A DNA stretch of 64,000 bases from Liolophura sinensis. Taxonomy: Eukaryota > Mollusca > Polyplacophora > Chitonida > Chitonidae. This document shows positions 41,593 to 50,902 of the stretch, in pieces. The notes below the pieces were generated by a model. The model was not told the origin of the DNA and did not search any database. It saw only the letters and a list, made by a program, of their open reading frames with translations. The DNA is taken from assembly GCF_032854445.1 (NCBI RefSeq), contig NC_088301.1, positions 59,098,512-59,162,511 of the forward strand, given 5' to 3'. Made by a program: the position numbers and the translations under genes. Each line of letters starts with the position of its first letter. Within the stretch, counting starts at the first letter, position 1.

Positions 41593-44500
41593 TCAGCGTA
41601 AACATTCCTCAAAAAAAGTTAAATCACTAATTAAATCATCTTTTCCTTTAGCACTCGGCAACGTTCCCCATGTCTGGATTTCATTTCCTGTTCAAAACAA
41701 AAGAAATGTTATCATCAGGATATACATGTAGAAAAAAAACATGCTATAAAACTTGTTAACTGAAACATCAACAGGTGTCTACATGTATATCTCTAATATA
41801 AAATAAAGGGACATAACTCAGCAAACATTTTCTGACAATGTTGCCAGTAATGGGGAGACGGCATATTTTTTAACACTGTGAGTGTGAAGCAGGACTTTAA
41901 CACCTTGTTACATCAAATATGGATTGTAGTGTAACGTCTAAATCGTTCAAATGTATCCATTTCTTTGTAACGTCATACTGTCATCATAAGCTGGGAAAGG
42001 AACATCTGATTTCAATAAAATGATGTCAAGGTCCTGCTGCCTGGCATGAACAGGTACCCATTTTCAATTGACTACCTACTCTAGCAAAGAAAGCTCATTT
42101 CCAAATTTTAGAAATTGTCATGTTCATCCAATTTCATGTTAATGATCAATGTCGCTAAAAGAGTTAAAATATAATATAAATCTTACCTCTACTATTAAGT
42201 CTTTCAAAGGAAGAAACAGCATCACTGTTAAACATCCAGAAATGACCATTATTGCAAGAGAGCAAACACTGTCTACATGGCAAACACACATGATAGCCAA
42301 CAATGTTCCCGCTGCAATAGAACACAGCAAATAATTTCACAAGCAATGCAGATTAAACAGATGACAATATACTTTGGGTAAAATATGCATTTATTGTGTC
42401 ATGAAATTGGGCATGTAGTTTAATGCATAAATCCGTCTTGAATCAGCTGCCTGGGCAGAACGTCTCATTTTTTTTTTTTTTCTACCTTTCATCTCACACC
42501 TTTTGATCAATTATTCCTGAAGCACATTACATGTACTTGACACTGTGTCCATCATTCCATCCTGCCGTGTATTCTGTACTTGGATAGGTGACTCTCCATT
42601 TTACTGTTAAATTAGTGTACCTGTATCCTATATGAAATACATGGGTACATGGGCACAGCTTGCCAGAGCTAGAATTTAGACTGCTTTCTGGCACACACTG
42701 GTGCGGTTTTGAAATTTCTAGCTATCCCAGTTGGCGTGTAGGTCAGTGTCATAATGATATTTTAAGTTCAAATGTTAAAATGTGGTTTTGAGTTGATCCA
42801 TAGGGCCAGTTTACCAATGCTATATTTTAAGTTACGTGTCGTGATAAATGAAAATCTTGTTTTGCCAAGCTGATAATCTCATGGCCAATGTGCCAAAGTG
42901 ATATTTTAAACCACAAATATCTCCTTCCAGTTAAAGATATGTGCATTCACTTCATGCAGAGAAATTCAAAGAGTTTGTCCACAGTAAAACTTGTCAAAAT
43001 CCTAGCAAGTGTAACTCTGTGCAATGCAACATTTAACAAATAAATGGTTCTGATTTCATTTACCAAAAGTAAATGAAACATGCCAAATTACATTAAAATA
43101 TTGTTTTAATTCAATGGGCAACAGAGCTACAACACACCATTCTTAAGTTAAAATTAAGAAATAATGTTTCCTGCTATGTGTGTCTAGCAGCAGTTTTAAA
43201 GTCAATAAGGTGGATGAGGTTGTTATTAAAAAAATTGTTTAACCTTGTCCACCTTATTGACTATAAATCTGCCGCTAGACACACATAGAAGGAAAAATGT
43301 CAATTCTACAACCCTCCCCGAAATGTAGGTAATCTTATAATTAAATATGAAAAACTATGGCACACCCATATGAAGTGCTGCTCGAAGATCCCAGCAAAGT
43401 TATTCTAAATAGCACAGGGCCTGCAATGTCATACACAACAGGCAAACAGTGTTTATAGATAAAATAGGTACCAGTCTATATAGTCATGGGTTTCAGTTCG
43501 AACGAGTATCAAATTGATGGCAAATGCGGCTGTTGAAAATAATCTGTGTAGTGTTTTCAACTGTGGAACATTCGTTGGTATGGGCCTGCTTGTAATCTTC
43601 AACAATGACATTTCTCACAGTGAAACGAGTGAGTGAGTGCTTGGGGTTTAACGTCGTACTCAACAATTTTTTAGTCATATGACGACGAAGGAATCATTAG
43701 GGTGCATGTACGTGTAATGTGCCTCCTTGTTGCAGGACGGATTTCCACCGCTCTTTTATTTAGTGCTGCTTCACTGAGACAACTTACCGAAGGCAAGTAA
43801 GCCGCCCCGCCCGAGCCATTATACTGATACGGGTCAACCAGTCGTTGCACTATCCCCTTCATGCTGAACGCCAAGCGAGGAAGTTACAACTTCCTCTTTT
43901 AAAGTCTTAGGTGTGACTCAATCAAGGATTGATCCTGGATCTACCGGTCCCGACACGGACGCTCTACCAACTGTGCTATCCGGGCCGGTCACAGTGAAAC
44001 GAAGTTGCTGCCAAGTGGTTAGTACATGTTCTATTTTTCTCTGATGTAATTGCCTTCCCTAGGAATGAAATATAAAATATGGCATTTGTATAGTGTCACT
44101 GGATGTACAAAAAGTAGAAAACCATGCTATTTCAAAGTCTAAGATAGCTTTGTGACGTTGCATTGACAGCGGGACACGGGCTTCCATGATTTGCTTATAA
44201 ATACATGTGTCTTCTGCGAGCACCAAACTTACCATTGTAAACATGCAACGTCCTTCACTTTACATGAACAGTATGATGTACAGTAGTATTCTCCGACTGT
44301 TTCAACAGAACTGAAAGAAAGCATATCACTAGTAGTGATACTGGTATTTATAATATCTGGGTACTCTGAAGTAATTTGGCCTGTAAATAGATATATGTAC
44401 ACATGTGTAGGCTGTCCTAGTTCCTTTCTGGCAAACGTAAGAGTGTTTTATCATCGGAGAATTTCAGTAAAATGCAGAACCTGTAACTTGCTATTTTCTT

Positions 44501-47500
44501 TTATTTTCTGTAGATACACTGTTGCAGTCCTACATGTAATTGGGGTACATTGGGGAAACCATAAATTCTGTAATATCTTACGTGAAACAAATTGAATACT
44601 CTTCAGCTCACACAAAAATTTAGACATTTTATAAAACAGCATTCGTTTAAATTCACAAATTACCTGTACATGAACCTAAATGTACATACCATACCAACTA
44701 TGAAAGCCTTACATCCTTGAAAGATATTGTTATATGTATTTCTAAACGGATGCAAGGAACCTACATGTATCTATGTAATTCACCTAAATAAGCCGATGGT
44801 ATAGAAATGGGGAAAACTCAGGAAACTATTTTTCCTTACACACGAACAGATAGTGAATTGGTTTGAACAAAAATTGATTCCATTTTTGTGCTTAATATTT
44901 TGCTTATTAATATTCAATGTCAAGTTTCGAAAGAGAAGGCAGTGTTTGAAAAGAGGTAAGATGCAAAAAGCAGACTTTCTAAACTGGACGTCTGTCGTCA
45001 GGTTTCTTTAACTATGTTAAGTGTCCTTTTGGCATTTAAGTCAACACTGACTTTGCATAGCTTTTGTACGTTGAAACCTGTTTAAAATGTTTGGAAACTT
45101 TACCTCATGTTTTTAGTGGGTGTCAAAGATTTTTGATTCTGTGAAGTTTGGAACCAATAAAATTACATGCATATACGTTCGAAAATTCACAAATAGAACA
45201 CCATAGTGAACTGATGTTAGTTTTCTGAAGTCATCATGTGATGTAAATTCCTAACACTACAAACTACATGTTATTTCCAAACAATTCAGAAATGGAGTGC
45301 TTCTTTCCATGTTTAACGTGCACATGCCTGGCAGGAACAAAACTCTGTCAACACCCATAACTGTGGTCAATAACAAAGGGCTGCACCTTCAATGATGGCT
45401 AGTTTGCCATTACCGAGTGGATTACATATGAAGTGTTGCGTGTGGTATGAGTGAGAGGTAAGAGCTATAGCTGAGTTGACACCTGAGCCTGTTTCATAAA
45501 GTGCAGGCAGCGCTACATTCACATAACTATCATGGTAAAGTAATACCTAAAACACTGGTTGTCAAGGAAGATACATGTTCATAACGTTATGTGTGCTTTG
45601 GGAAACGGGCTTCTGTTTTGGACTGCTTATACATCGTTTAGAAATCACTTGATGTGAAACAATGCACAGTGGTTGCCACTCTCTTAGCTAAGTACAAAGA
45701 GAGGCGTTGATATAGTCTGATTACACTGACTGGTACTGTGGGAAATATTTAGATAAGTCATAATTTTGGAAGCTCAACCTCTAGTCAGAGGCCCCGCCAT
45801 TTGTCGAAGTGATCAGGATCAAATTGCTACACACCACCTACCATGCATCAAATGCACGTTGTAACATCTCACCTTCCCACTGCCGTTCACAATTTTGTGA
45901 TGGTAATCGAATCAAGAATCATTTCTGAGGAGAAAGCATCCAGGCCAAGTGGTATTGCCCTGTTTTCCAGACGGCCCCCTATGACTAAGTCAGTGAATTT
46001 TGGGAATATGCCCATAAGTGGATTAACCATTGTTTTGCAATATGAAGTCAACTATATTTTAGCCTAGATGTGTGCGATGGGATGAGGAGATCCAGCTTGA
46101 GGTGAATAGAATGTTAATTGGTGCTACAATCTATTTCTCACCATTTAGGAAAATTACGCGGTTTCGAACTAGTGGTTGCAAAGCCATGTTTGTGGCGTAC
46201 ATCCATCTACTAACTCATCAGACTAGACTTGATGTACAAAGTAACATGTACACGTAGCTACCCAGGTTAGATGAGCTTATGTATCAAACAGGGGGAAACA
46301 TAGCCCGAAAGTGAAAGACTCCAACTCCTTTTCTTATAATGGCCTAGCTGGATGTGTTGGAGTCTCGATGCTAACAGTGTTAATTTTGTACTCATTGAAG
46401 ATCATCTTTCTTACTGCACAAGTCTTGTGCTTTAGAATAGATGTGTTATAGCCATAAAACCTTCCAAGCCATGCACTCCTTGGTCATGCCTACTATCTTC
46501 CCACTGCTCCACGATAAAGCAGGACATGCGTATAACTGCTCAAGACGGCGGCAGTGACAAAGAAGTATCTCCCTTGGAAGCCTTCATGGCAAGAACACAT
46601 CTATTCTAAAGCTAGAAGGAACATATGGTGGCCATCCAGTGGGTGTGGAAAGCAGGAGCTAGGTTGGTGTTTTTGCATGAGATTTATTCATTAACAAAAA
46701 CAATTCGCCTAGACCTTTGTTCAGTTAGAAATTAACACTGTTAGCATCAAGACTCCAAAAACGCCAAGCCAGTATAAGAAAAGAAGTAGGAGTCTTTCGG
46801 GGCCAAGCCGTACAGAGCTATTGTATATAGAACATTTCATTAGTATATTATAACTGGAAACTGGAAGAAATTCAAGAATACAGCAAGAGCACACGGATTC
46901 CATCTAGATAGACTATTGGCTCCTCGTAGCTCTACACCTTCATTAGCGATAGTGACTACATTAATACTATTGGGTAGAGCTACACAATCCATTTGATTTG
47001 CCTGGAGTAGTGCCAGAGTTCTGCCAACTTGGGCCTCAGGCACTTTCCTCAGGCACAAATATGTACGCTACAATATCAAGACTCGCCTTCATTCCTTAGG
47101 AGATTGCTGGCCTGAAAGGCCATCGCCCAAGTTAAAACCAAAAAGACGCCATGTTAATGAAGGCTCTCTGTCTTCTTCTTCCAGCATTTCCGGTTGTGAC
47201 AACAATGTCAAGTGACTTCCAAATCGGAACTCAAACCAAAACAACACCAAACAGTGTGTCACCTACATTATTAGAGACCTTCACGTCCATTTCACTTCAC
47301 CAAAAGCCTTTATCTTTTCTTCAAGTTTCCCCACAGTTTTGGCAATGTGACTCCATTGCTGTATTCAGGTGCGAGTTGGCAGAACTCTGACACTACTTCA
47401 GGCAAATCAAAAGGGTAACTGTGTAGCTCTATTGCATAGTGTAAGCGAAGATGTACAGTCACATTGAGCTTATGAACTATCTAGTACTATCGCTACAAGT

Positions 47501-50835: not shown

Positions 50836-50902
50836 ATGTCTGACAGAAGAGTTGTGAAAAAGGAGAAGGAAATAGTACTCGAATTCGACGGCCATGTGAG
50901 AG
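50836..50902 (+). CDS. SRGAP: srGAP (SLIT-ROBO Rho GTPase-activating protein), first coding exon
   Basis: Starts with ATG and encodes MSDRRVVKKEKEIVLEFDGH then VR, followed by one base (G) and a GTAAGT donor at 50903. The 22-residue length, the phase-1 end, and K-K-x-K-E-I-x-x-E-[YF]-D-x-x-V agree with the N-terminus of vertebrate srGAPs just before the F-BAR domain. The full protein would carry F-BAR, RhoGAP and SH3 domains, linking Slit-Robo signals to membrane shape and Rac/Cdc42; none of these exons is in the window. The match is short, so the call leans partly on its divergent position next to FAM72, as in vertebrates. Confidence 0.8.

Follow-up and report, generated by a model that had tools for sequence, protein, structure and literature searches.

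In vertebrates, FAM72 and SRGAP2 are laid out divergently (PMC7957592, PMC12672016), and this SRGAP2-FAM72 pair is described as present in four copies in humans, A-D, and in one copy in other vertebrates (PMC7957592). A bacterial artificial chromosome (BAC) clone of the fish Solea senegalensis likewise carries srgap2 and fam72a side by side, with ikbke and rassf5 listed as fish neighbours of the pair (PMC6579814). Research on FAM72-SRGAP2 treats the pair as a unit of the vertebrate brain, with human-specific duplications that may be relevant to cortical evolution. The only explicit statement on its range that we found, in the legend of Figure 1 of a review, is that the pair is absent outside notochord-containing vertebrates, with fly, nematode and yeast as outgroups (PMC7957592). 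Here we describe a complete FAM72 gene and an srGAP gene placed head to head in the chiton Liolophura sinensis, in a window of 64,000 nucleotides (C7:59098512-59162511, C7 being contig NC_088301.1; coordinates called window-equivalent extend the same numbering beyond the window end). This locus contradicts the stated absence of the pair outside notochord-containing vertebrates (PMC7957592).

Deeply conserved divergent pairs are known, such as HSPD1-HSPE1, which are likewise two genes head to head across species, and FAM72 and SRGAP are absent from the main text of the gene-order survey that describes them (PMC2871058). In the literature searched we found no naming of the FAM72-srGAP pair in any invertebrate, but synteny tables in supplements or closed papers may list it. 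For FAM72 with amphioxus nothing was found, and for FAM72 with oyster only the fish BAC study.

The chiton FAM72 (minus strand) and srGAP (plus strand) are adjacent with their 5' ends facing, their start codons are separated by 584 bp (50252-50835), and in-frame stops are found upstream of both start codons. The pair is inside a 60-Mb contig, on gap-free sequence: there is no N between window base 1 and window-equivalent 133253, which includes both genes as modelled and all the DNA between them, and the sole run of N in the 184 kb of contiguous sequence read around the pair (200 bases, window-equivalent 133254-133453 = C7:59231765-59231964) sits 2.1 kb beyond the last srGAP RhoGAP exon. Genome-wide searches covered 609,464,459 bases in 632 contigs, and human FAM72A, SRGAP2 (including its SH3 and C-terminus) and UNG served as reference sequences throughout. 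A sequence-only reading of the window had claimed FAM72 on the minus strand and an srGAP first exon on the plus strand, divergent and 584 bp apart, in an apparent invertebrate and with the layout of the vertebrate FAM72A-SRGAP2 pair. Both gene models agree with this arrangement and the host is a chiton; the gene names are supported by the PF14976 match of FAM72 and by the FCH, RhoGAP and srGAP2 F-BAR matches of srGAP given below, and the vertebrate layout by the papers cited above (PMC7957592, PMC12672016).

The FAM72 model, built from splice sites, has four coding exons with GT/AG intron borders and an open frame of 158 amino acids. All exons are on the minus strand: exon 1 (50073-50251) runs from the ATG at 50251 to a GTAAGT donor, exon 2 (44233-44310) matches the human FAM72A in tblastn (E-value 0.001), exon 3 (42187-42311) encodes the GNIVGYHV... 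core and matches PF14976 (E-value 1.3e-18), and exon 4 (41593-41687), weak alone in tblastn (E-value 4.1), includes the stop codon, which ends at 41593, the first coordinate of the stretch named in the sequence-only reading. An AATAAA at 41433-41438 on the same strand is, by its pattern only, a candidate polyadenylation signal. The gene spans 8.7 kb, with a first intron of 5.8 kb. Its protein matches PF14976 over residues 15-158 (profile positions 2-145 of 145) with an E-value of 4.6e-58 and a score of 195.9 bits, the cut-off being 27, and in the whole genome this profile found two exon matches, both in the window on the minus strand, the two shorter exons going unreported. Identity to the human FAM72A reaches 52% (75 of 143 aligned residues), and in the ungapped alignment the chiton N-terminus is nine residues longer, while 10 of 14 Cys, 2 of 3 His and both Trp of the human protein are kept. 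Also kept in the chiton protein are the FWMF motif at 101-104 and W125, the residues taken for the UNG2 contact in a study by modelling and docking (PMC8616359). Judged by these matches, the chiton gene belongs to the FAM72 family (PF14976, YPEH2ZP); among solved structures no close relative of it was found (best E-value 0.17).

The first intron of FAM72 also contains nested inverted repeats (46280-47570, arms of 18-58 nt). Their part at 46280-46840 has at least 130 genome-wide matches listed, itself among them (of 357 candidates, 40 were scored), and is a fold-back or miniature inverted-repeat transposable element-like element. Possible further inverted-repeat pieces are located at 49431-49536 and 49968-49985, one 18-nt piece being less than 90 bp from FAM72 exon 1.

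On the other side of the interval, coding exon 1 of srGAP (50836-50902, plus strand) encodes MSDRRVVKKEKEIVLEFDGHVR and ends in a phase-1 donor. The predicted intron 1 starts at 50903, runs through the window end at 64000 and continues to window-equivalent 115684 (64,782 bp in total), and exons 2-16, also on the plus strand, lie outside the window at window-equivalent 115685-131179 (C7:59214196-59229690). A tblastn search with human SRGAP2 over 154 kb of contiguous sequence gave collinear plus-strand matches from 50836 to window-equivalent 131135, and the resulting model comprises 16 coding exons, with GT donors in 16 of 16 and AG acceptors in 15 of 15 cases, and with phases that chain from exon 1 to exon 16. 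The product of 684 amino acids is identical to SRGAP2 in 291 of 706 alignment columns (41%), and its Pfam domains are FCH (E-value 1.6e-15) and RhoGAP (PF00620, E-value 1.6e-46, residues 495-642). In srGAPs the F-BAR domain bends membrane and the RhoGAP domain switches off Rho-family GTPases. Among solved structures, the srGAP2 F-BAR 5i6r is the best relative (phmmer E-value 2.3e-99, query 7-446), and since this alignment starts at residue 7, exon 1 is included in the match. The ten genome-wide matches of the F-BAR part all fall at this locus (10/10), and of the genome-wide profile matches for RhoGAP (45) and FCH (4), one of each is in the srGAP gene. By sequence, therefore, we assign the chiton gene to the srGAP family, with F-BAR followed by RhoGAP in the order of the family.

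Exon 1 alone is weak in tblastn (E-value 4.6). When the six frames of the 184 kb were compared with SRGAP2 residues 1-22 (367,864 windows), its 22-codon stretch came first with a score of 46 and the runner-up reached 27. If only open plus-strand windows that start with ATG are considered (473 between 50000 and 115684), the runner-up to exon 1 scores 20. The first exon reads KKEKEI where SRGAP2 has KKDKEI. The F-BAR exon that begins at window-equivalent 115685 (C7:59214196) does so in phase 1, the phase in which exon 1 ends, so that exon 1 chains in phase to the F-BAR and RhoGAP exons, and we regard exon 1 as a strong prediction.

The sequence-only reading had pointed to F-BAR, RhoGAP and SH3 exons downstream on the plus strand, of which F-BAR and RhoGAP exons were found, 65-80 kb downstream of exon 1, and SH3 exons were not. 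A motif scan of the plus-strand frames from window-equivalent 131001 to 154000 gave no convincing SH3 exon, and a tblastn search with the SRGAP2 C-terminus up to window-equivalent 184000, about 53 kb past the last exon, gave none. Genome-wide, none of the 64 SH3_1 matches and none of the 34 matches to the SRGAP2 SH3 falls in the srGAP locus, and no exon following the exon 16 donor was found. The missing SH3 and C-terminal tail may be lost, or displaced in or beyond the 200-N gap.

Compared with the vertebrate pair, the chiton locus has the same two genes, divergent and with their 5' ends facing, and its FAM72 has four coding exons, the number ('four exons') given for vertebrates in a legend of the review (PMC7957592). 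The spacing differs, with 584 bp between the chiton start codons versus a vertebrate intergenic region of 4 kbp (PMC7957592), and so does the partner, which is the one srGAP found in the chiton genome versus SRGAP2 in the vertebrate pair. FAM72 and the F-BAR part of srGAP were each found at one locus in the genome, which fits orthology with the vertebrate genes, within the limit that a profile non-match here does not show absence (PF03167 missed a UNG exon, see below). Of the srGAP copies that vertebrates gained through whole-genome duplications, SRGAP2 is the only one known to have kept FAM72 at its side. From these likenesses we infer that the chiton pairing is homologous to the vertebrate one, and we put at roughly 80% the probability that the chiton pair is a form of the FAM72A-SRGAP2 divergent pair that goes back to the ancestor which protostomes and deuterostomes share. 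The mollusc copy would then move the origin of the pair past the protostome-deuterostome split, and the pair is probably not a vertebrate invention. Several points weigh against this reading: the SH3 usual in srGAPs is not found, although the assembly gap at 133254-133453 lies there; ikbke and rassf5 are not among the few chiton neighbours recognised (TRMU-type and TatD-type genes) in a non-exhaustive scan of the window; and the ancestry is read from one protostome genome.

The mammalian FAM72A brings its target UNG to the CTLH ligase (PMC12223117). By analogy with what is reported for mammals, the chiton FAM72 is probably an adaptor delivering nuclear UNG to the CTLH ubiquitin ligase. A search with the human UNG core located a chiton UNG gene at C6:59578164-59580779, whereas a genome-wide search with the PF03167 profile reported no UNG exon. 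Upstream of this gene, an open stretch with MIGQGKISSFFKPTSQKRP (L014 from 4075) is the sole PIP-box pattern match in the plus-strand frames of 9 kb, and contains a UNG2-type start, MIGQGKISSFF, close to the start of human UNG2, MIGQKTLYSFF; its joining to the catalytic exons is putative. Given this UNG2-type start, the mammalian target of FAM72A seems to exist in the chiton, in a UNG2-like form. Further UNG-like loci are found at C6:56715659-56716440 and C11:11599721-11600533, possibly extra uracil-DNA glycosylase copies.

The interval between the start codons (50252-50835, 584 bp) is a candidate bidirectional promoter, and has one match in the genome; the 711-bp stretch that includes it (50200-50910) also matches only itself. 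The CpG observed/expected ratio of the interval is 0.86, the window median being 0.38, and ranks 24th among 635 overlapping windows, some of those above it belonging to the same CpG-retaining plateau. This plateau (49600-51199) covers the interval, the first exon of each gene and the beginning of FAM72 intron 1, with ratios of 0.72-1.08 in 400-bp windows starting at 49600-50800 and of 0.54 (at 49400) and 0.53 (at 51000) at its edges. In windows starting at 51200-51800 the ratio goes from 0.26 to 0.0, being zero at 51600 and 51800, in srGAP intron 1. In molluscs, a promoter without methylation next to a methylated gene body has this look. The short CpG-rich interval might thus act as one promoter region firing both ways and keeping the pair together, a proposal that we consider tenable but short of even odds. 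A break of the pair would, on this proposal, cost one gene its promoter. FAM72 would be the gene used in proliferating cells and srGAP the one used in differentiating cells, a division suggested for the vertebrate pair in the review.

The wider proposal is of a FAM72-srGAP regulatory unit that would date back at least to the ancestor of protostomes and deuterostomes. One bidirectional promoter would hold the unit together and switch cells between two states: proliferation with FAM72, which would lower nuclear UNG, and, with srGAP, a change of shape or differentiation. In our view this is possible but doubtful. If it were true, the vertebrate brain 'master gene', with its duplications in humans, would represent a late use of the unit and not an invention of the notochord era. 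The functional coupling is now testable, as a long-kept promoter should give paired or mutually exclusive transcription in animals that lack a vertebrate brain.

According to a gene-order survey, a shared promoter is assumed for divergent genes with less than 1000 bp between them, the metazoan mean divergent distance being 34,912 (PMC2871058). Fourteen promoter motifs were tried in the interval against a background of 500 first-order Markov shuffles. Raised counts were obtained for TTTAAA, presumably a CHR variant (3 versus 0.48 expected, P 0.018), for the half-site TCTCGCG (1 versus 0.05, P 0.052) and for TATAWA (2 versus 0.42, P 0.088), to none of which we give weight as the P values are uncorrected for 14 tests. 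CCAAT (1 versus 0.93) and the loose E2F core (1 versus 0.80) are at chance level. Vertebrate FAM72 genes are reported to be under DREAM/CHR control from the vertebrate interval (PMC7957592). In the chiton interval the CHR motif TTYGAA is at chance level (1 seen versus 1.16 expected, P 0.69), its lone match being TTCGAA at 50270, 18 bases before the FAM72 start codon, and 8 of the 14 motifs have no match, with no strict E2F, NRF1 or ETS consensus. The gene-order survey found bidirectional pairs enriched in chicken, and not in fishes or non-vertebrate animals (PMC2871058), which weakens the general promoter argument. Like the motif counts, this speaks against a shared promoter. Of the earlier claim that the pair and its shared promoter predate vertebrates, the pairing is supported, chance adjacency being very unlikely (see below), and the conservation of the promoter is a conjecture, with CHR at chance level; a long-kept regulatory link between uracil repair and Rho signalling, deduced from the age of the pair, is plausible.

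Two alternatives leave the ancestry untouched and challenge only the shared promoter. The pair may have been kept by inertia, a short interval being seldom broken and the linkage being under no selection; no regulatory motif is clearly above chance, and shared ancestry requires merely the absence of a break in two lineages, so we see this as a possible, though hardly probable, account. We think it rather unlikely that FAM72 is a bystander, pinned by distant srGAP enhancers located in or beyond it and with no shared promoter function: the 5.8-kb first intron of the 8.7-kb FAM72 gene and the 64.8-kb first intron of srGAP leave room for distant regulatory DNA, but the start codons are just 584 bp apart in one CpG plateau, for which the bystander model has no need.

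The ancestry itself would fail if the adjacency had arisen independently, by chance, in the chiton lineage. The sample is one invertebrate genome; if all 1,399 divergent pairs of human (PMC12672016) are set against the 28,233 gene models of the chiton (PMC11068029), arithmetic (not simulation) gives no more than about 0.05 chance matches in a genome. For this pair alone, the one srGAP would be next to the 5' end of FAM72 by chance in about 1 in 28,000 cases even if orientation and spacing are ignored, and the chance is lower still for a head-to-head arrangement within 600 bp. Shared descent from the protostome-deuterostome ancestor is then the better account, and independent adjacency is very improbable. 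An assembly join, which the sequence-only reading had raised itself, or vertebrate DNA contamination is a negligible explanation, as the nearby 200-N scaffold gap comes after the last exon used and the N-free sequence spanning both genes, from FAM72 through the RhoGAP exons, rules out a scaffold join, while the proteins are only 41-52% identical to human, which makes contamination very unlikely, and the intergenic interval has one match in the genome. Pseudogenes were also rejected, as no stop interrupts the frames that were read (the model lacks the 3' end of srGAP).

Elsewhere in the window, 10907-11281 and 13764-14114 (plus strand) are exons of a TRMU/MnmA-type tRNA methyltransferase-family gene (PF03054, E-value 1.3e-14; PF20258, E-value 1.1e-19). 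A TatD-type DNase exon, perhaps TATDN2-like, is found at 33170-33502 (plus strand; PF01026, E-value 1.3e-16), and a 508-codon open stretch at 19937-21463 (plus strand), with no Pfam match alone, shows YIDSHCHLD near its end by eye; as a guess, the two could be part of one TatD-type gene. Three tandem arrays were observed: one at 16070-16764 (56-bp unit, 12.4 copies), one at 31017-31785 (78-bp unit, 9.9 copies), overlapping an open frame of 252 amino acids (30946-31704) with seemingly spurious Pfam matches, and one at 63589-64000 (48-bp unit, 8.7 copies) that reaches the window end.

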